Of a DNA stretch of 34,096 nucleotides, positions 19,716 through 32,722 are shown piece by piece. Location: contig JAHENF010000022.1 in NCBI GenBank assembly GCA_024643255.1, forward strand, positions 1 through 34,096, read 5' to 3'. How positions within the stretch are numbered: position 1 is the first letter of the stretch; each line of letters opens with the position of its first letter. The stretch is from Ilumatobacteraceae bacterium. Its GTDB lineage: Bacteria > Actinomycetota > Acidimicrobiia > Acidimicrobiales > Ilumatobacteraceae. The translations under genes were made by a program, and so were the position numbers. A model generated the notes under the pieces. It searched no databases. It was given only the letters and a program-made list of their open reading frames with translations, and was not told the origin of the DNA.

Positions 19716-20621
19716 ATGGACCTTGGAATCTTCGGTGGCGTGAGTGGACGGAGCGGGATGGCCGGAGTCATCGCCGACGTCAAGGCAACCGCCGATGCGG
19801 GCTTCGCCTCGTACTGGCTTCCGCAGCTCGTCCAGAGCATCGAGGCGATGAACGTCATCGGCGCGGTCGCGCAGCACGTGCCGGACTTCCGTTTCGGGAC
19901 CTCGGTGGTGCCGACCTATCCCCGACATCCGATGGTGATGGCCGAGCAGGCGATGACGACCAGCAAGGTGACGGGCGGGCAGTTCACGCTGGGGATCGGG
20001 TTGTCGCACCAGCCCGTCGTCGAAGGGATGTGGGGCATGTCGTTCGACAAGCCATTGCGCCATGCACGCGAGTACCTCGAGGTGCTGATGCCACTGCTCG
20101 GTGGCGAGGCCGTGAATTTCGTCGGTGAGACCGTGACGGCGCGCGGCAAGCTGGACATCGACGCCGTGGAGCCGCCGGTGTTGCTCGCGGCGCTCGGTCC
20201 GCAGATGCTGCGTCTGGCCGGGGCCCGCTGTGCCGGCACGATCACGTGGATGACCGGTGCCTCGACGCTCGCGTCGCTGACCGTGCCGACCATCGGTGAG
20301 GCCGCCGAGGCAGCGGGTCGCCCCGCCCCTGAGATCGTCGCCGGCTTTCCCATCTGGGTCACCGACGATGCCGAGGCCGCCCGTGCGAACGCCGCCAAGA
20401 CGTTCAAGATCTATGGACAGCTCCCGTCGTACCGGGCGATGCTCGACCACGAAGGTCTCGCCGGCCCGGAAGACCTCGCCATCATCGGCGACGAGGCGAC
20501 TTGTGCAGGTCGGATGGACGAACTCGCAGCGGCGGGCGTCACGCTGTTCATCGCGTCGGAGTTCGCCGCCGATCCGGAGGATCGAGCACGAACCAGGGCG
20601 TTCCTCGCCAGTCGACTCTGA
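19716..20621 (+). CDS. LLM-class F420-dependent oxidoreductase
   Basis: About 301 residues from ATG 19716 (MDLGIFGGVSGRSGMAG); the GTG immediately before (19713) is an alternative start. The barrel motifs are GFASYWLPQLVQSIEAMNVIGAVA, FRFGTSVVPTYPRHPMVMAEQA, the F420-family GGQFTLGIGLSHQPVVEGMWG, and VLLAALGPQMLRLAGARCAGTITWMTG. This fits the MSMEG_4879-like subgroup (TIGR03564), from memory. Its stop (TGA 20619-20621) shares one base with the ATG of the next gene, so the pair is translationally coupled. It is probably a redox partner step for the substrate of the LDI-like protein. Confidence 0.9.
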   Translation: MDLGIFGGVSGRSGMAGVIADVKATADAGFASYWLPQLVQSIEAMNVIGAVAQHVPDFRFGTSVVPTYPRHPMVMAEQAMTTSKVTGGQFTLGIGLSHQPVVEGMWGMSFDKPLRHAREYLEVLMPLLGGEAVNFVGETVTARGKLDIDAVEPPVLLAALGPQMLRLAGARCAGTITWMTGASTLASLTVPTIGEAAEAAGRPAPEIVAGFPIWVTDDAEAARANAAKTFKIYGQLPSYRAMLDHEGLAGPEDLAIIGDEATCAGRMDELAAAGVTLFIASEFAADPEDRARTRAFLASRL

Positions 20622-22096
20622 TGGAGCTCTCCGCTCGCTCGCTCGGTTGGTTGCGGTACCTGCACCGCAAGGCCCACACGCCCGACGACTGGAGCCGTGG
20701 GGGGCATCCGCATCCGCACTGGGACGATCGTTCCGATCCGCCGATGGCGAGCTGGCATCGTTTCGATCTCGTCGACTCGTCGTACGCGATGGGACTGATG
20801 GCGCACCGAACGCCTGCCTGGACCGAACCGTACGTCGCCGTGCTCGACCAGCTGATCGAGCGACACACCGGCTGGTGGTCGGCCGCCGACTGGCTCACCC
20901 AGTTCGGTCACGACCCCGATCGTGCGAACTACCCGGACATCTACCGCTTGTTCATTCCCCAGGAACTGTGGGGCGACTACGACGTGCCGGGGTGGACCGC
21001 CAACGGCACCGAACCGTGGGGCGTCCAGATGGATCCGGTCGCGGCCGACGGGATGCTGTTCTACAAGGGCTTCCTGCTCGTGCTGCTCGGCATCCGTTCG
21101 ATGGTCGACAACTCGCCCGATGCTCGCGACCGGTGGAACGAACCGTTCGAGATGATTCGCGACGGCGACAACACCTTCACGTGGACGCATGCCCAGATCG
21201 CTGACCACCTGACCCGGCAGTGGCTGGCTGCACCGATCGGGTGTCATTGAGAGAACACCAAGGTCTGGCCGTTTTGACTGGCCGGAGCTGGCCTCGGTCT
21301 GAGGCTCCACGACAACCGATACGGGACTGACTTCAACGCTCAGGCGTTCGAGCCGTGGTGGGCCTACGCCCGCGAGCACTATCTCGACCTTGCCGATTCG
21401 GCGCCGCCCCAGATGACGACCTTCTACTACGACCCTCAGGTCGACGTGCACCATCGCCTTCCGGTGGCCGCTGCGCTGACGACGTCGTTCTACGCCGCCC
21501 CGCAGGTCCCCGCTGATGCCCGTCGGCTCTTCGACGCCGGGTGTGTCTCGGCGGGCATGAACCGACCGATCGTCACGCCGGTCAGGGCCAGCCGTGCCTT
21601 CGGGTCGTCGCTGCTCCTCGCGCGTGAGTGGGCGGTGACCGAGCTCGAGGGGCATCTCGCAGACGCGATCGAGGCGTCGTACGAACCGAGATGGGACACC
21701 GCGCTCGGTGAGTTCACGTGGGGGCTGGGACTGAACGAGCCGCATCCCCGCGGTCAGTTCAATGCGTTCCTGGCGGCTGCCGAAGCTGGTGGGCCGGGCG
21801 CCTGGACGCGTCTGTCGGCGGCACCGCTGGCGCGTTGTCCGCAGATCGTCGACGTCGACTTCCCGGCGATGGCGCTCAGCCGTGCCGAGTGGGTCGACGG
21901 TAATCTTCGACTCCGGTTGGCGCCGCGGCGCGAGGATCCGACGATCTTCACGACCTTTCGACTGGTCGGCGCCGAACCGCGCAACTGGGACGTCCACGGT
22001 CTCGACGGCGTCAGCCTGGATCTGTCGACGACCGGCCTCACCATCCGCGTCCCGATGGTCACTGCCGATCTCGAGTTGATCCGCGGCAGCTACTGA
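20621..22096 (+). CDS. Linalool dehydratase/isomerase-like protein with two in-frame UGA codons (candidate dual selenoprotein)
   Basis: A single frame of 491 residues is interrupted only by TGA at 21248 (residue 210) and 21275 (residue 219). The protein reads on sensibly across both: LAAPIGCH-U-ENTKVWPF-U-LAGAGLGLRLHDNRYGTD. LinD of Castellaniella has two catalytic cysteines in C-x8-C, followed 16 residues later by GTD; both spacings are reproduced here with U for C. Further LinD-like segments are SSYAMGLMAHRTPAW, QELWGDYD and DPVAADGMLFYKGF; the LinD YKGH histidine is Phe151 here. LinD hydrates/dehydrates and isomerises linalool, geraniol and myrcene. Each TGA is followed by a SECIS-like hairpin. 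The alternative is a double-nonsense pseudogene. The substrate is unknown, and the alignment is from memory. Confidence 0.72.
21248..21286 (+). promoter_or_regulatory. SECIS-like hairpin for first UGA (21248)
   Basis: TCTGGCC (21264-21270) pairs with GGCCGGA (21280-21286): seven pairs including one G-U. The 9-nt loop GUUUUGACU starts 20 nt after the UGA. This meets the bacterial SECIS rules I know: apical loop about 16-37 nt downstream and a G in the first two loop bases. The second UGA lies inside this loop. Confidence 0.5.
21275..21306 (+). promoter_or_regulatory. SECIS-like hairpin for second UGA (21275)
   Basis: GGCCTC (21290-21295) pairs with GAGGCT (21301-21306): five Watson-Crick pairs plus one G-U. 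The loop GGUCU starts 18 nt after the UGA. E. coli fdhF SECIS has the apical loop sequence AGGUCU about 17 nt after its UGA, so both loop and distance agree closely. It does not overlap the preceding hairpin. Confidence 0.6.
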
Positions 22097-22131
22097 CCCC
22101 GGCCCCGGCGATCCGGTGGGGGCAGGCCGGG

Positions 22132-22184
22132 TGTTTGTGGCGAGGATTGGTTGACCCGTCCCAACCGGAGTGCGCCACAAGCGG
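22132..22184. repeat. 53-nt hairpin repeat, copy 1
   Basis: It begins TGTTTGTGGCGAGGATTGG. Outer arms TTGTGGCG/CGCCACAA and inner arms GGTTG/CAACC make a nested stem-loop. It lies just after the LDI-like stop (22096), in the convergent gap before the GST-like gene. The second copy follows with a 73-bp period and two base changes. Confidence 0.85.
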
Positions 22185-22204
22185 ATGTGGGGTGGCACGC
22201 CTGA

Positions 22205-22257
22205 TGTTTGTGGCGAGGATTGGTTGACCCGTCCCAACCGGAGTGCGCCGCAAACGG
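22205..22257. repeat. 53-nt hairpin repeat, copy 2
   Basis: Identical to copy 1 except for two bases near the 3' end (GCAAA in place of ACAAG). It ends 11 bp before the GST-like stop codon. The rest of 22097-22267 holds no gene; spurious minus-strand frames across it read GTGQPILATN. The pair may act as a bidirectional terminator. Confidence 0.85.
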
Positions 22258-23299: not shown

Positions 23300-24126
23300 C
23301 CGGTCACCGACTGCTGGAGGACATCGAGCGTCGGACGGACGATCATCGTGTAGGTGTCGGCGATCGCTTTCTCGCGGTGGTCCTTCTGTGCCTCCAGACG
23401 GGCCGGGTCGGTGACGACCGCCATGAACGCCCGCTTGCTCGGGAACTGGTTGAAGCGCACCTGGTGCCAGACGCGTCCGTCGCCGATGATCGTGCCCTCG
23501 ACGGCGAACCACCCGGCGACTCGGACGCCGTGTTTCGACGCCGAGATGGCGGCGGCCGACTGGTACGCCTGCATGTGGGTCGGCGTGATGTGTGCCGCCT
23601 CGGGGTCGTCGAAGCGGATCACGTGCAGCACCATGACCGGCCCGTCGTCGTCCGTCGGTGGGTGGGGCACGTCGGACCAGTCGACCGATGCCGTGCCCTC
23701 GGGTGCGGTCGGATACGGCATCGGCTGGCAGCCCATCACGATGGTCTGCTCCATGCCGGCGTCCTTGTGTGCGTGCGACGTCTGGAACTCGGGCCGCGAC
23801 TGCATCTCGATGAACGACCGCCGGGTCGGGTACTTCACGACGCCGATGCGATCCCAGATCGGGGCCTCACCGAGCAGCTGCTGATCGACGTCGCCGAAGA
23901 ACACCGGCGCCGCACCGACGGCCGTGAGCGACTCGAGCGGCATGTACTCGTCGTCGGCCTCCATCCCACTGAGCGTCGTCTCGCGACCGTCCTCGTACTC
24001 CGCGACGTCGCGATACTTCATCAGGTTGACCATCCACACCGGGCCGTCATCGCCGCGCGGCGTGGTGGCGAGGCGCATGCCGTAGTCGCGGTCGACCTGG
24101 CCGTAGCGGGGTGCGTTGGTGCTCAT
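23296..24126 (-). CDS. Duplicated dimeric alpha/beta-barrel (DUF1330-like) protein
   Basis: 276 residues from ATG 24126, overlapping both neighbours by 4 nt. Two ferredoxin-like repeats are evident. The first begins GPVWMVNLMKYRDVAEYEDG and holds IGVVKYPTRRSFIEMQSRPEFQTSHAHKDAGMEQTI. The second begins GPVMVLHVIRFDD and holds WHQVRFNQFPSKRAFMAVVTDPARLEAQKDHREKAI. The pattern KYPTRRSFIEMQSRPEF resembles DUF1330/EthD-type dimeric barrels. No catalytic residues can be assigned. The gene is placed between the sulfatase/DJ-1 fusion and the GST-like protein in a catabolic operon. Confidence 0.75.
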   Translation of the reverse strand: MSTNAPRYGQVDRDYGMRLATTPRGDDGPVWMVNLMKYRDVAEYEDGRETTLSGMEADDEYMPLESLTAVGAAPVFFGDVDQQLLGEAPIWDRIGVVKYPTRRSFIEMQSRPEFQTSHAHKDAGMEQTIVMGCQPMPYPTAPEGTASVDWSDVPHPPTDDDGPVMVLHVIRFDDPEAAHITPTHMQAYQSAAAISASKHGVRVAGWFAVEGTIIGDGRVWHQVRFNQFPSKRAFMAVVTDPARLEAQKDHREKAIADTYTMIVRPTLDVLQQSVTG

Positions 24127-26708
24127 GACCGGTTCCCTTCTGCGGCAACTGCGTCGGCGACGAGTTGCATCATTTCCCGGGCCACCATCGGGCCTGCGTT
24201 CTGGTTCTGACCGGTGACGAGGTTGCCGTCGACGACCCAGTGGTTGGCGAGCGGATCGCGGCGGCGGGTCTCGCTCTCGAAGAGCGCACCCATCGCCCGC
24301 AGTTCGGTCTCGGGATGCTGCGGCGTCGACTCGATGCCGAGTTCGCGCACCTGCTTGTCGGTCACGGCAGAGACTCTGCGGCCCTTGACCAGTGGCTCTC
24401 CGTCGGTTCCCTTCGCATTGCGGAGCCCGAGGGGGCCATGGCACACACCGCCGATCACCTTGCCGAGCGCATTGGCCCGCGTGATCTGATCGGCGAGCAC
24501 CTCGGAGAAGCCGAGGTCGAACGCCGCACCCCAGCCGCCGGCGAGGTACACGATGTCGTAGGCGGCCATGTCGAGATCGCCGACCGCGAGCGAGCGGGTG
24601 ACCTTCTCGCGCAGCACGTCGTCAGCCAGGAAGCGGTCGTCGTCGGTCGAGCGTAGAACCGGCTTGAGCGACTGCGGGTCGACGGGGATGACCCCGCCGA
24701 GCGGGCTGGCCACGTCGACGTCCATGCCGGCGTCGAAGAACGCGTAGTACGGCACGGTCATCTCACTCGCGAACACTCCGGTCGGCTTGCCGATGTCGAG
24801 CATGGCGTGGTTCGTGGCGATCACGAGCGCCCGCCGCCCGAACAGGTCGAACTCGCGGGCATCGGGATCGTCGGGGTGCATCCCGAGCTTCTGCAGCGCC
24901 TTGCGCAGCGCCCGCGCCGGAGCCGGCGGGCGCTTCGATTCGGGGGTGAGCTTGCGGCGCGAGGCATACGGCCAGGAGTGATGACGTTCCGGCACACGCT
25001 CGGCGCGCTCGTGCTTCATGACGTCCTTCAGGTGGGCGAACACCGACGCGACGGCCGGATCGTTCCATCTGTTCGCCGCCTCGATCGGGTCGGCGTCGAG
25101 GTCGTACAGCTCCCATTGATCGGGCAGCACCGAGGTGCGGAACGTGTCGCCGCCGGGCCCGCTCGACGCCAGTTGGCGCACGCCGGGTTCGGTCCAGGTC
25201 GCCGGGTCGTCGAATGTCCGCACGAGCTTCCAGAGATGGTCGGACCCACCCTCGGCGCCGGCGACGCGTGCGACGACGCCCTCGAAGTTCGAGGCCACGT
25301 GGGCCGGAATCTGGATGCGCAGCGGTGCCGGCGGCTTGGCGGCGCGGCCGAGACGGCGAGCCATCCCCGACGCGCCGGAGTCACCTTCGAGCATGTTGTC
25401 GCGGGTCATCAGATACACCGGCCGGTTGCTGTCGGCAGGCTCCCCGTCGACGACGGGCATCAGGTTGCGACCGGGGAGCGGGTGAACCTCGGAGAACGAC
25501 TCGCGCAGCACCGCTGCGGTCGCCTCCTCGTCGATGCCCGCGGCGCCGAGCAGCGTCGGCACGATGTCGACGTGCGAGGTCGGTGCGTCGTCGACGGTCC
25601 GGCCGTCGGTGACCGTCGATCCGATCCGGGCGATCGAGAACGGCACACGCGTCGCCTCGTCGTAGAGCGTGTACCACTTCTGGTGCAGACCGCCGTGCGA
25701 GCCGAGCAGGTCGCCGTGGTCGGAGGTGCGCACGATGACGGCGTCGTCGGACCCGCCCTCGGTGATGGTGCGCCGGACCTGGTCGAGCGGCGCGTCGACC
25801 TCGGCATGGAGTCGGTAGTAGGTGTCGCGGTACTGCTGTGCGTTCTTGCGGTAGATCCGCTCGACGGCCGCGCCGAATCCGTAGGCCGTCGGGTACGAGG
25901 TCCGGTACGCGATCTGGGCGGCGGGCTTGGTCGCCAGATCCTCGTCGGCGGTGGGGGAGGCGGCGATCGACGGAGGGTCGAGCGGCGACGGGCTCTCGAT
26001 GGGTGCGCCGCGCGCGGCCCACATCGGGAACAGCACGATGTCGTGCGGGTTCACGAAGCTGGCCACGAGCAGGAATGGCTTCAACGCCTCGGCGTCGCCA
26101 GCGCGTCGGCGGGCATATCGGTCCTCCAACCACGCCACCACGCGGGCAGCGATCAGCGGGTCGCGCCGCGTGCCGCTGTTGGCGAGCGGCGCCCCGTGTG
26201 GTTCCGGGCCGATCCAGCCGGAGAATCCGTAGGGGTCGAGCGGGTCGGCGGCTCGATATGCCGCGACCGCTGCGTCGTCGACGACCCCGTCGTCGTCGTT
26301 GGTTGCCAGGGGCTGTCCGTCGTCGCCGGTCAGGTCGGCGTGGGAGATGTGCCACTTGCCGTCGTAGTGCGTGTCGTAGCCGGCGGCGCGGAACCAGTGA
26401 CCGAGCGTCGGGACCTCGCCCTGCGGCAGCCAACGCAGACGCGAGTCGTCGTACATCTTGCCGAGGCCGTCGGTCTGGGTGACCCCGTGCACATCGGGAT
26501 ATTGGCCGGTGAAGATCGTGGGGCGGCTCGGCACGCAGGCCAGCGAACCGGTGTAGTGGCGGCCGAAGTTGACGGCGTGGTCGTCGAACCAGGCGCGGCC
26601 GGTGAGGACGTTGCGGCGCCACTCGGCGACGTCGGCGCCTTCGTACGGGGGAGCGGCGCGCTCCTCGTCGGTCATGATGATGATCACGTCGGGGCGGATG
26701 GTGCTCAT
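24123..26708 (-). CDS. Sulfatase fused to C-terminal DJ-1/PfpI domain
   Basis: 861 residues from ATG 26708, overlapping both neighbours by 4 nt. Residues 1 to about 600 are a type I sulfatase. They carry the formylglycine signature Cys58-V-P-S-R (SLACVPSRPTIFTGQYPDVHG), the metal ligands Asp14/Glu15 in IMTDEERA, DGKWHISH and TSDHGDLLGSHGGLHQK. Residues about 626-861 form a DJ-1/PfpI-type domain with RALVIATNHAML, YLAGGWGAA and the nucleophile elbow GGVCHGPLGL (Cys756-His757). The frame is open across the junction. Family roles are sulfate ester hydrolysis for the first domain, and glyoxalase/chaperone/amidotransferase-like for the second. The fusion is unusual. Confidence 0.88.
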   Translation of the reverse strand: MSTIRPDVIIIMTDEERAAPPYEGADVAEWRRNVLTGRAWFDDHAVNFGRHYTGSLACVPSRPTIFTGQYPDVHGVTQTDGLGKMYDDSRLRWLPQGEVPTLGHWFRAAGYDTHYDGKWHISHADLTGDDGQPLATNDDDGVVDDAAVAAYRAADPLDPYGFSGWIGPEPHGAPLANSGTRRDPLIAARVVAWLEDRYARRRAGDAEALKPFLLVASFVNPHDIVLFPMWAARGAPIESPSPLDPPSIAASPTADEDLATKPAAQIAYRTSYPTAYGFGAAVERIYRKNAQQYRDTYYRLHAEVDAPLDQVRRTITEGGSDDAVIVRTSDHGDLLGSHGGLHQKWYTLYDEATRVPFSIARIGSTVTDGRTVDDAPTSHVDIVPTLLGAAGIDEEATAAVLRESFSEVHPLPGRNLMPVVDGEPADSNRPVYLMTRDNMLEGDSGASGMARRLGRAAKPPAPLRIQIPAHVASNFEGVVARVAGAEGGSDHLWKLVRTFDDPATWTEPGVRQLASSGPGGDTFRTSVLPDQWELYDLDADPIEAANRWNDPAVASVFAHLKDVMKHERAERVPERHHSWPYASRRKLTPESKRPPAPARALRKALQKLGMHPDDPDAREFDLFGRRALVIATNHAMLDIGKPTGVFASEMTVPYYAFFDAGMDVDVASPLGGVIPVDPQSLKPVLRSTDDDRFLADDVLREKVTRSLAVGDLDMAAYDIVYLAGGWGAAFDLGFSEVLADQITRANALGKVIGGVCHGPLGLRNAKGTDGEPLVKGRRVSAVTDKQVRELGIESTPQHPETELRAMGALFESETRRRDPLANHWVVDGNLVTGQNQNAGPMVAREMMQLVADAVAAEGNRS

Positions 26709-27181
26709 GCGTTGGTCTCCGTTGTGGCGATGTGACTGGCGAGGTGGCTGGTGAGTCCGGCGATCATCTCGTCGGACGCGGCGGCAAGTTTTCGGCCGAC
26801 CACCTTGGCGACGACCTTCTGGGGTGGACGTGGCCCGGTGTCGATGGTGCTCGTCAGGGTCACGGCGGTGCCCGCTCCGTCCTGTGTCAGGCTCCACGTG
26901 TTCGTGACCGAGCGGACCACCTTGGGCAGCCCGGCGAGCGAGTAGGCCAGTGCACCCGGCTGGTCGGTGGTCGGGGCGGTCCACGTCACGACCGTCTCGA
27001 CCAACGTCGTGCGGCCGGTCTGGATGCGGCGGGCCGTGCCGATTCCGGTCTCCTGTTCCGTGAGCAGGCACGAGTGGTCGACGTTCGTCGCCCACGCGCT
27101 GATCGCCCCGAAGTCGGCCAGTGCGGCCCAGACCGTGTCCGGTGTGGCGGGGATCATCCCGGAGCGTTCGACGGTGGTCAT
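26705..27181 (-). CDS. SRPBCC-family (START-like) protein
   Basis: 158 residues from ATG 27181, overlapping both neighbours by 4 nt. The N-terminal VERSGMIPATPDTVWAALADFGAISAWATNVDHSCLL is the usual SRPBCC opening, followed by GTARRIQTGRTTLVETVVTW and the C-terminal amphipathic helix region. These proteins have a deep hydrophobic cavity and bind or cyclise/hydroxylate hydrophobic small molecules such as polyketides or lipids. In this operon it may bind the substrate (inference). Confidence 0.85.
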   Translation of the reverse strand: MTTVERSGMIPATPDTVWAALADFGAISAWATNVDHSCLLTEQETGIGTARRIQTGRTTLVETVVTWTAPTTDQPGALAYSLAGLPKVVRSVTNTWSLTQDGAGTAVTLTSTIDTGPRPPQKVVAKVVGRKLAAASDEMIAGLTSHLASHIATTETNA

Positions 27182-28946: not shown

Positions 28947-29823
28947 GGTGCTCCATTCGATTGGTGACGCCGATGCCTGGCACCGGCGTCACCGGGTTGA
29001 TCTCGATGCGGTGGAGGTCGTCGCCGAGTTCGACGACGCCCGTGAAGTGGTCGGCCGTGAGCGCCTTCCAGTCGTCGCCGCTGCCCCCGGTCGGGATCGG
29101 TGGGACGTAGTGGGTGAGCACGAGCGTGCCGACGCCACCACGCGCCGCCGTCTGCGCGGCTTCCTCGGGGGAGGAGTGGTAGTCGAGGGTGTCCTTGATC
29201 CGCTGCATCGGCACGTTGGCGATGATGTCCTTGCGGATCACGGTGTGAACGAGCGCATCGGCGCCGTCACACAACGAGTCGAGACCCGGGCACGGCACCG
29301 TGTCGCCGGCGGCGACCACCGCGACGCCGTCGTGCTCGAAGCGAAACCCGACGCTGGGCTCGACCGGCTTGTGATCCGTCTGGGCGCAGGTGATGCGCAC
29401 GTCGCCCGGCAGGGTGACGTCACCTTCGGTGACCTCGATGACGTCCACCTGGGGTGGCGCATCGAGATCGTGGTGGTGCGCGATGCGGTACGCCATGTCG
29501 GGTTCGAGCGACGCCATGATGTGCTCGACGACGGCCTTCGTGCCGACCGGTCCGACGATCGTGAGCGGGGTCGGCACGAACGTCATCACCCAACGGGTGG
29601 TGATCACGTCGTTGAGGTCGGTGATGTGGTCGCTGTGCAGGTGGGTGATCAGTACGGCCGAGAGGTTCGGCGCGCCGAGGCCCGCGGCGGCGAGGCGCAT
29701 CAACACGCCGCGGCCGGCATCGACCAGGTAGTGCTCCTCACCGGCGGAGATCAACGTCGCGGGCCCGGCTCGATCGGGGCTCGGTATCGGGCTGCCGGTG
29801 CCGAGCAGGGTGATGGCGATCAT
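28924..29823 (-). CDS. Metallo-beta-lactamase-fold hydrolase (RNase Z/arylsulfatase-like)
   Basis: 299 residues from ATG 29823, overlapping the upstream sulfatase stop by 4 nt. It starts [22 protein letters not shown]. The zinc motif is [16 protein letters not shown] (HxHxDH), with further ligands in [19 protein letters not shown] (Asp) and [10 protein letters not shown] (His). The group contains RNase Z-like phosphodiesterases and alkyl/aryl sulfatase-like enzymes; the operon context favours small-molecule hydrolysis. Its 3' end includes a 29-bp palindrome (28964-28992) that encodes [10 protein letters not shown], and it overlaps the dehalogenase by 23 nt, so the C-terminal tail may be a late extension. 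Confidence 0.88.
28964..28992. repeat. 29-bp palindrome inside 3' end of MBL gene
   Basis: GTGACGCCGATGCC-T-GGCACCGGCGTCAC: 14-bp arms with one mismatch around a single central base. A second copy with the same length and nearly the same sequence is at 33989-34017. Here it is translated as part of the MBL protein C-terminus. Confidence 0.8.
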
Positions 29824-32084
29824 TGACGGCTCATTTCCGCGGCTGCCTCGGCAGCTCGCGCTTCGAGATCGCTCGGTGAGAGGAGCTGGATGACCACCTC
29901 GTGCAGGTTCCCGGTGAAGGCAAATGGCGCCTCGTAGCGGTTCGACACCGGTGAGCCGTGGTCGGAAGCAATGCTCGGTCCGACCGACGACATCATGCGC
30001 ATGAACAGCGGCAACTCGGCGCCTCCCACCGATGACCCGTCGATCTCGATCTCGATGCTGCCGATACGACCGTCACCGCGGCGGAACTTGGCCACCAGCG
30101 TCGAGGTGCCGTCGGGAACCTCGACGTCCGACTCGACGATCGTATGGTCGTCGAACGCGTTGTAGTCGACGACGAGCCGGTCGTCCTGCAGGAACACCGA
30201 AATCCCGGAATTCTGTGTGCCGGTCGCGAACAACACGCCGTCGTCGCCGCGTTGGCGGGTCACGGTTGCCGTCAGGTCGAACGATCGGCCGCCGATTGCA
30301 GCGCCGGCCTGGCCGGGCAGCGGTGACATGGGTGGCCGGTAGACGTAGCGCCGGTCACCGGGATGTGGCGAGTTCGGTCGGAATCGCGCCCCGAAGAGCT
30401 CGACCAGGCGGTCGTCGAGGGGCAGCACTCCATGCCGTTCGGCCTCCACCCACCACCGCTCGATCAGTTCGGCGAGCTTGTCGGGTCGTTGCTGCGCGAG
30501 GTCGTTGCACTCCGACCAGTCGTCGGTCAGCCGGTAGAGCTCCCACGGTTCGGTGTCGTAGTCAGCGCCCTGGGTGTGTTTGCAGACCGCTTTCCAGTCG
30601 CCCGCGACGAGCGCCCGGCTGCCGCTCATCTCGAAGTACTGCAGGGTGTTCGTCGCCGCTGCGTCCGGGTCCGCAAGGACCGAGGCGAAGGAGTGACCCG
30701 TGATCGGCAGCTGTTCGATCCCCCGATACACGTCGGGCGCGGTCGCACCGACGAGTTCGTAGATCGTCGGCGTGATGTCGGACACGTTGACGAACTGCGA
30801 GCGCTTGGTGCCCGCCTGATCGGCCGGGACGATGCCGGGCGCGTGCACGATCATCGGCACGTGGACGCCACCCTCGTGGGTGTTCTGCTTGTACCACTTG
30901 AAGGGGGTGTTTCCGCACTGCGCCCAGCCCCACGGGTAGTTGGTGTGGCTGTGCGGGCCGCCGATGTCGTCGATGCGCTCGACCGCTTCGTCGGGTGTCT
31001 CGAAGATGCCGTTGAAGAACTTCATCTCGTGCATGACCCCGAACGGGCCGCCCTCCTGCGATGCGCCGTTGTCGGCCATCACGACCAGGACGGTGTTGTC
31101 GAGTTGGCCCATGTCGCGCAGTCCGTCGACGAGGCGTCCGATCTGGTCGTCGGTGTGGTCGAGGAATGCGGCGAAGGCCTCCTGCAACCGACAGGCGAGG
31201 CGCTGTTGGTTCTCGGGCAGGTCGTCCCAGGCGTCGACACCCGGGTTGCGCGGTGCGAGCTGTGTTCCGTTGGGTACCAGTCCCGATTCGAGCTGGCGGG
31301 CGAACCAGCGTTCGCGGACGACATCCCATCCCTCGTCGAACCGTCCCCGGTACTTCTCGAGGTACGCCGCCGGCGCCTGGTGAGGAGCGTGTGTGGCACC
31401 GAACGGCAGGTACGCGAAGAATGGTCGGTCCGGTCGCACCCCCTTGGAGTCCGACACCATCTTCAACAGCTGGTCGACCAGGTCCTCGGACAGGTGGTAC
31501 CCGTCCTCTGGCCGCGACGGCGGATCGACCGGGTGGTTGTCGCAGGTCAGCTCGGGATGGAACTGGTCGGTCTCGCCCTCGAGGAAACCGTAGAACCGGT
31601 CGAAGCCACGGGCGAGCGGCCATTGGTCGAACGGTCCGGCGGCCGAACACTGTTCCATCGGGGCGAGGTGCCACTTGCCGACGCAGAACGTGGCGTAGCC
31701 CTCTTCGCGCAGCACCTCGGCGACGGTCGCCGCGTGGTTGGTGATGTGGCCGAGCATGTTGGGGAAGCCGGTGCGGAAGTTCGACACCGCGCGCATGCCG
31801 ACGGCGTGCTGCGAACGACCGGTGAGCAGCGACGCGCGTGTCGGCGAGCACAGCGGGGTCACGTGGAAGTTCGTGAACTGCAGGCCGTTCGCCGCGAGCG
31901 CATCGACGTTCGGGGTGTCGATGTCCGAGCCGTAACAGCCGAACTGTGCGAATCCGGTGTCGTCGAGCAGCACGATGACCACGTTCGGTGCGTCGACACC
32001 GGGATGTGGCGGCTCGTCGTACCAGGCCTCGGAGTCGGCCACCGTCTTGCCGATCGTCCCCTCGAATCGAGATGCTCGTGTCAT
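29820..32084 (-). CDS. Arylsulfatase-type sulfatase
   Basis: 754 residues from ATG 32084 ([22 protein letters not shown]), preceded by GGGAGGA and overlapping the TetR stop by 4 nt. The type I signature is Cys79-S-P-T-R in [18 protein letters not shown], where Cys79 is the formylglycine precursor. Metal ligands include Asp41/Asp42 ([16 protein letters not shown]), VGKWHL and [12 protein letters not shown]. The size and the C-terminal beta-rich region ([18 protein letters not shown]) match large actinobacterial arylsulfatases of the AtsA/AtsD type. There is no signal peptide, so it is probably cytoplasmic. It needs a formylglycine-generating enzyme, which is not in the window. Confidence 0.93.
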
Positions 32085-32722
32085 GTCTGTCCTCCCGTCG
32101 CGATCGGGGTCAGACCCCGATCGCGATCGTTGGTGATCAGGGTGAGAAGGCTGGCCTTCCACGCTCTGGCGATCTGCGTGTCGTTGCGTGCGTGGGCGCG
32201 GGTCATCAACTCGTACGCCTCGGGTGAGGTGAGTGAGTCGACGACCGCGACGAGGTCGGCGGCATCCGACGGCGTCAGCCCGTCGATCTCGCTGCCGAAG
32301 CACGCTCGGGTCTGGTCGGCGAGGGTCGCCCGGTTGCGGGCGACGGCTTCGACGAGGGTGTCGTGCTCGAATGCCCGAGCGCGGGCCATCGACATCAGCG
32401 GGCCGGCCTGCTCGTAGAGGTCGAGCCGAGTGCGAACGAAGAACGCGACGCGGTCGTCGAGATCAGCGTTGCGCGGCGGCGTCGCGTCCAGGAGATGTGA
32501 GAAGCGTTCGCGGAACTGGTCGAGCGCCTGCTGTTGGAGGTCGCCCAGGCCATCGAAGTTCCGGAAGATCGACGACACCGACACGCCTGCGCGCTCGGCC
32601 ACTGCTTCGGCCGACGGGGCGCCCTTGCCCTCGACGATCAGCGCGAACGCTGCGTCGACCACGGCCTGGCGGTTGCGGTCGCGCCGCGCCCGGCGACCAT
32701 CGATCGGTACGTCCCCACTCAC
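32081..32722 (-). CDS. TetR-family transcriptional regulator of the sulfatase/dehalogenase operon
   Basis: 213 residues from GTG 32722 (VSGDVPIDGRRARRDRNRQAV); longer starts cross the divergent promoter. The HTH is clear: QAVVDAAFALIVEGKGAPSAEAVAERAGVSVSSIFRNFDGLGDL. It is the first gene of the nine-gene minus-strand run, overlapping the sulfatase by ATGA. A 17-bp palindrome at 32755-32771 in the divergent gap is the likely operator, which would control both this operon and the GrdB-like gene. The last residues (DRDRGLTPIATGG) are encoded by a 29-bp perfect palindrome, so the C-terminus has probably been rewritten by a repeat insertion. Confidence 0.9.
   Translation of the reverse strand: MSGDVPIDGRRARRDRNRQAVVDAAFALIVEGKGAPSAEAVAERAGVSVSSIFRNFDGLGDLQQQALDQFRERFSHLLDATPPRNADLDDRVAFFVRTRLDLYEQAGPLMSMARARAFEHDTLVEAVARNRATLADQTRACFGSEIDGLTPSDAADLVAVVDSLTSPEAYELMTRAHARNDTQIARAWKASLLTLITNDRDRGLTPIATGGQT
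32098..32126. repeat. 29-bp perfect palindrome inside 3' end of tetR gene
   Basis: TCGCGATCGGGGTC-A-GACCCCGATCGCGA: perfect 14-bp arms around one central A. The GGGGTC-A-GACCCC core is a widespread repeat motif in bacterial genomes. It has the same size and geometry as the palindromes at 28964 and 33989 but a different sequence. Confidence 0.8.

Follow-up and report, generated by a model that had tools for sequence, protein, structure and literature searches.

Does a bacterial gene interrupted by two in-frame TGA codons encode an enzyme with two selenocysteines (Sec), and if so, what would such an enzyme do? The question is raised by a 34,096-nucleotide (nt) stretch of DNA from an Ilumatobacteraceae bacterium (contig JAHENF010000022.1; hereafter, the window), for which an earlier note had proposed, from the sequence alone, a relative of linalool dehydratase/isomerase (LinD) in which Sec replaces both catalytic cysteines. 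The gene lies on the forward strand (20621..22096), beginning at ATG 20621 and ending at the terminator TGA 22094-22096. Its frame is interrupted solely by TGA at codons 210 (UGA1, 21248..21250) and 219 (UGA2, 21275..21277), confirming a single frame that gives a LinD-like protein of 491 residues on readthrough. Our analysis places these UGAs at both catalytic Cys columns of LinD, and the product is probably a Sec/Sec enzyme of the LinD fold (predicted Sec210 and Sec219), likely an alkenol or terpenol (de)hydratase/isomerase.

The window protein matches the Pfam family Ldi (PF18566) over residues 136-304 at 41.8 bits, against a cut-off of 26.1, and 518 homologues were found at E 0.001 or better among 7996 scored candidates. 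The closest known enzyme is LinD (also LDI) of Castellaniella defragrans (PDB 5g1u, 5hlr, 5i3t, 6tfr and 6tft), with which it shares 19% identity. A phmmer search of the PDB with the single window protein returned nothing related (one match, at E 0.99), and LinD was reached there by a 17-sequence profile. In the profile-to-LinD alignment, codons 210 and 219 fall on the two Cys of the LinD motif C-E-P-D-N-Y-F-V-Q-C, C171 and C180 (C170 and C179 in mature numbering). The TGA spacing that the earlier note had given as that of the catalytic Cys pair is thus exactly so, and the GTD motif follows the second site by 16 residues in both proteins, again as proposed. The predicted fold of the window protein is also that of LinD, an (alpha/alpha)6 barrel (PMC6013536). 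Residues 406-491 are additional to LinD, falling outside the alignable part and appearing mostly as strands in the predicted model.

We read the codons at the two catalytic columns in 110 loci, of which 85 are distinct once exact duplicates are dropped (L035 is a copy of L069 and L049 a copy of L102; L085 is C/U). The scan of genome contigs kept the best 80 of 161 relatives, and sampling favours relatives of the window. With U denoting an in-frame TGA, the distinct loci comprise 32 U/U, 48 C/U, 3 C/C and 2 S/H, and the U/C form is absent among them. Homologues were expected to have Cys or Sec at each column if the proposal held: this is the case in 83 of the 85 distinct loci, and 110 of the 120 listed predicted homologous proteins are Cys/Cys. 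The placement of the TGAs is, as the earlier note argued, beyond chance. Among the 79 U/U and C/U loci scanned, no in-frame TGA falls anywhere but at one of the two columns or at the terminator, the latter including one in L059 that was counted as internal but is residue 492 of 494. A sequencing error is very unlikely, given that 32 distinct loci have both TGAs and that one of these (L128) belongs to a chromosome record of 4.4 Mb.

The family is present in Actinomycetota, Chloroflexota, Pseudomonadota, Myxococcota and others. Three database proteins (P0106, P0110 and P0118) stop just short of UGA1 or begin just after UGA2; gene callers cut at UGA, and the databases therefore contain fragments of the family. 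A few relatives (P0002, P0003, P0004, P0103, P0104, L038 and L039) have R, G, Q, S or H at one or both catalytic columns, and the Arg and Gly codons among these may differ from TGA by one base. Such relatives could be decayed or re-purposed forms, or could come from lineages that lost Sec.

The host genome contains all four genes for Sec decoding that the earlier note had named: selA adjoining selB on contig 55, selC (tRNA-Sec, anticodon UCA) on contig 94 and selD on contig 5 (28247-29167; genome G000). The selD gene has an in-frame TGA of its own, and SelD is itself a predicted selenoprotein (SHGAGUGCK). A protein search over 397 genomes of the order gave matches in 37. SelA was found in all 28 whose match has one or two in-frame TGAs, compared with 244 of 397 overall (Fisher 6e-7, relatedness not removed). 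The nine other matching genomes are three C/C genomes without SelA, two S/H genomes with SelA and four genomes with stop-free partial matches and SelA. Outside Actinomycetota, where record titles place 26 of the TGA loci, the genomes of 18 such loci were tested and SelA was found in 17. The presence of the sel genes, the Cys or Sec columns and the recurrence of the codons together support the double-Sec interpretation.

Selection persists 3' of both UGAs, although it is weaker there. Across 126 pairs from 28 U/U loci with a synonymous divergence (dS) of 0.05-1.5, the median ratio of non-synonymous to synonymous divergence (dN/dS) is 0.10 before UGA1 and 0.27 after UGA2, with a maximum of 0.71. 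In a tree of 109 rows (a quick method with one sequence per locus, shorter loci excluded), the U/U loci form one Acidimicrobiia group and two Chloroflexota groups amid C/U relatives, and the U/U state must have been gained or lost at least twice to account for the well-supported branches. The closest outsiders of the Acidimicrobiia U/U group are the C/U loci L073 and L079, and thus Sec at the second site seems to have come first. Three C/U loci within the U/U clade (L023, L024 and L028) look like reversions from U/U; one metagenome-assembled genome, G340, has both a C/U copy (L028) and a U/U copy (L076).

How might two UGAs so close together be recoded? The bacterial Sec insertion sequence (SECIS) model quoted in section 5 of PMC13188914 requires a loop of 3-9 nt with an early G, a stem of at least 4 base pairs (bp), a distance of 16-37 nt and a folding energy of -7.5 kcal/mol or lower. 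One hairpin behind UGA2 (hairpin 2, 21290..21306, forward strand) meets this model, with a 6-bp stem (GGCCUC/GAGGCU) and an apical loop GGUCU (21296-21300) located 18 nt after UGA2, and it reaches the energy threshold in 71 of the 77 U/U and C/U loci that are free of N. The form GGYCUC-GGUCU-GAGRCU is near-invariant behind UGA2, the loop being kept in 78 of 79 loci, and GGTCTGAG does not occur in the three C/C or two S/H genes read. Its codons CTC, GGT and CTG are fixed in 79/79, 79/79 and 78/79 loci across phyla, whereas the rest of these genes uses them at 0.35-0.38, 0.19-0.21 and 0.33-0.34, respectively. All six pairs show standard pairing in every cell. One pair co-varies between C-G, U-A and, once, G-C, giving 65 Watson-Crick matches among scorable loci compared with 41.8 (standard deviation 3.7) expected from each gene's codon use, relatedness not being removed. 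The case for hairpin 2 is made by the locked codons, the loop and the co-varying pair, energy alone not being distinctive.

A second hairpin (hairpin 1, 21264..21286, forward strand) lies between UGA1 and hairpin 2, with an 8-bp stem and a loop (21272-21278) that contains UGA2, and it accompanies the two-UGA form. In the window, the tandem hairpins 3' of UGA1 fold at -24.4 kcal/mol (z-score -1.97; 8 of 200 shuffles as low). All eight hairpin 1 pairs are present in 26 of the 32 U/U loci, seven in three and five in L118-L120, which have a bulged fold; among 47 C/U loci, at least seven pairs are found only in the presumed reversions L023, L024 and L028, which thus retain most of the hairpin. RNAalifold without a supplied structure predicted both hairpins for U/U and hairpin 2 alone for C/U. 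In U/U loci, the energy of the hairpin 1 core is -9.97 compared with -5.70 for the synonymous-codon null (0 of 200 null sets as low); in C/U loci, it is -4.43 compared with -3.89 (5% as low; 45 loci, two with N having been dropped). The distant Chloroflexota U/U loci L124 and L128 share a GGCCGGA arm that their C/U tree neighbours do not have, which reads as convergence or transfer. A different candidate for the first SECIS, a hairpin with loop GGAGCN 33 nt after UGA1, was rejected: 1.5% of null sets were as low in U/U but 0 of 200 in C/U, and because it beats the null in C/U as well, it does not track UGA1.

Several observations weigh against a double-Sec, LinD-type enzyme or its proposed recoding. 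The folding energy of hairpin 2 is matched by 7.5% of synonymous null sets in U/U and 1% in C/U, and the same stretch in the three C/C genes folds more strongly into a different structure (mean -12.4 compared with -10.1 in U/U); we therefore do not use energy as proof of this hairpin. Only 1 of 32 U/U loci has G in the first two positions of the hairpin 1 loop (4 of 32 if L118-L120 are given their own fold), so that this loop fails the usual SECIS rule. The earlier claim of a SECIS-like hairpin for each UGA thus holds in part: both have the shape and hairpin 2 fits the model, whereas hairpin 1, although real and conserved, lacks the early loop G. One TGA genome outside Actinomycetota, G407, has no detected SelA. 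The column of LinD H129, which we take to be its catalytic His, is Phe151 in the window protein, and the four most frequent residues there over 84 loci are F (74), W (5), S (2) and N (1), with no His listed; the chemistry may therefore differ. The Cys that form the structural disulfide C48-C101 of LinD (PMC6600392) have no counterpart in the window protein, whose remaining Cys are 208, 308 and 406. Lastly, no conserved neighbour hints at a pathway, the window neighbours each lying beside relatives in 1-2 of 80 loci (L051-L130, with duplicates from one genome kept and many flanks short).

Recoding of UGA2 would depend on SelB bound at the GGUCU loop of hairpin 2, 18 nt away. That loop is 45 nt from UGA1, too far for the 16-37 nt rule; folding of hairpin 1 (23 nt) would leave about 22 nt, and because the distance is shortened in this way, the hairpin 2 SECIS could serve UGA1 too, the ribosome then melting hairpin 1 en route to UGA2. 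We put forward tentatively the full scheme in which one SECIS serves two UGAs by means of a foldable spacer, in what would be the first Sec-Sec hydro-lyase/isomerase selenoenzyme, with the RNA device arising separately in Acidimicrobiia and Chloroflexota and Sec already at the second site each time. It is a real possibility, however, that SelB binds hairpin 1 directly, which would make it a genuine second SECIS, with a non-standard loop, and give one element per UGA. Its loop is 21 nt from UGA1 in the window, inside the rule, 29 of 32 U/U loci have a hairpin 1 core at or below -7.5 kcal/mol, and SECIS elements that break the rules are on record in PMC13188914. The loop is nevertheless variable (UUUUGAC, CAAUGAC or CGUGAC) and rarely has the early G, in contrast to the nearly fixed loop of hairpin 2. 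For UGA1, the spacer and the non-standard second SECIS are about equally plausible.

The predicted chemistry is contested by the alternative that the protein, while having both Sec, is a redox enzyme: on a LinD fold, its Sec pair would alternate between diselenide and selenolate forms, with no (de)hydration. Characterized selenoproteins are mostly redox proteins and UxxU pairs are known, according to section 7 of PMC13188914, and the Cys-to-Sec steps alter both members of a pair. We consider this alternative unlikely, as the predicted fold is that of LinD, in which the Cys pair has to stay reduced and participates in catalysis on the substrate, and no conserved redox partner gene lies nearby. 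In a Sec/Sec (de)hydratase/isomerase, the selenol pair would instead act as proposed for the LinD thiols, either in acid/base catalysis or covalently via a seleno-terpene adduct, and the selenols may be re-reduced more readily after oxidation than the oxygen-sensitive LinD Cys pair.

It is very improbable that UGA2 alone is read as Sec, with UGA1 a weak or regulatory stop and the product mostly truncated. Such a scheme would accommodate the 48 of 85 loci that have UGA2 alone, as well as the restriction of a canonical SECIS to UGA2 (at 18 nt), the hairpin 1 loop violating the rule; yet UGA1 occupies one of the catalytic columns, is found again in separate clades, always accompanied by hairpin 1 or a variant form, and is followed by sequence under continuing purifying selection. 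Although the relatives come mostly from draft metagenome assemblies, a pseudogene, a sequencing or assembly error and the use of TGA as an ordinary sense codon are all but excluded by the identical two codons in so many distinct loci, including a chromosome record, by the lack of any further internal in-frame TGA in 79 loci, by the use of TGA to terminate the window gene and a number of relatives, by dN/dS below 1 and by the Sec genes in the genome.

The SECIS of E. coli fdhF has a short stem and a GGUCU-type apical loop about 17-18 nt after the UGA. Hairpin 2 is alike in stem, loop and spacing; here, however, another hairpin, with UGA2 in its loop, comes first and accompanies an extra UGA 27 nt upstream. 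Bacterial proteins predicted to contain two Sec are described in PMC13188914, Table 1 (such as Prx-like UxxU, NF041115 metal-binding UxxU and TsoB UxxxxU) and likewise come from Sec-decoding hosts, but these are thiol-redox, metal-binding or rhodanese-like families, whereas the present case is UxxxxxxxxU on a (de)hydratase fold. Thus, two-Sec proteins are already known as a kind, and it is the enzyme class and the RNA arrangement that differ. No Ldi family appears among the 119 families and subfamilies tabulated in section 7 of that paper (May 2026), and NCBIfam release 20 has no model for the family and gave no match below E 0.2. A literature search for linalool dehydratase together with selenocysteine, which did not extend to subscription journals and preprints, found no paper; searches on bacterial selenoproteins, on two UGAs or diselenides and on PF18566 did not turn up the family in the titles or abstract starts among the matches listed; and term searches of the deep-Sep and GOS papers met neither linalool nor dehydratase.

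The gene would add a selenoprotein family spanning the phyla named above. If the interpretation is correct, selenium chemistry extends to a non-redox enzyme class in which both catalytic residues were exchanged successively and in a fixed order, beginning with the second site. With its Cys/Cys, Cys/Sec and Sec/Sec forms, the family offers a natural series in which the benefit of Sec in non-redox catalysis, and the means by which bacteria recode two near-adjacent UGAs, can be tested. Oxygen sensitivity is a known weakness of LinD. The enzyme is already employed in diene production (PMC6013536).

Immediately upstream, a luciferase-like monooxygenase gene (PF00296; 19713..20621, forward strand) has a stop codon that shares one base with the selenoprotein start codon (ATG), and just 2 of 80 loci have a relative of this monooxygenase gene close to Ldi. 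Apart from Ldi and its shadow frames, no neighbour family recurs in more than 13 loci, and some of the recurring families resemble acyl-CoA metabolism, as judged by eye. The N-terminus of the window protein, MELSARSLGWLRYLHRK, has no signal peptide apparent by eye alone; LinD proper is periplasmic. Directly 3' of the selenoprotein gene are two 67-nt direct repeats (22118-22257), 91% identical and each containing GGTTG...CAACC, whose 32-nt core has one more copy, with 2 mismatches, on contig 97. Farther along, the window encodes a fusion of sulfatase and DJ-1/PfpI domains (24123-26735) and, as judged by eye, a second sulfatase-like open reading frame (29820-32303).
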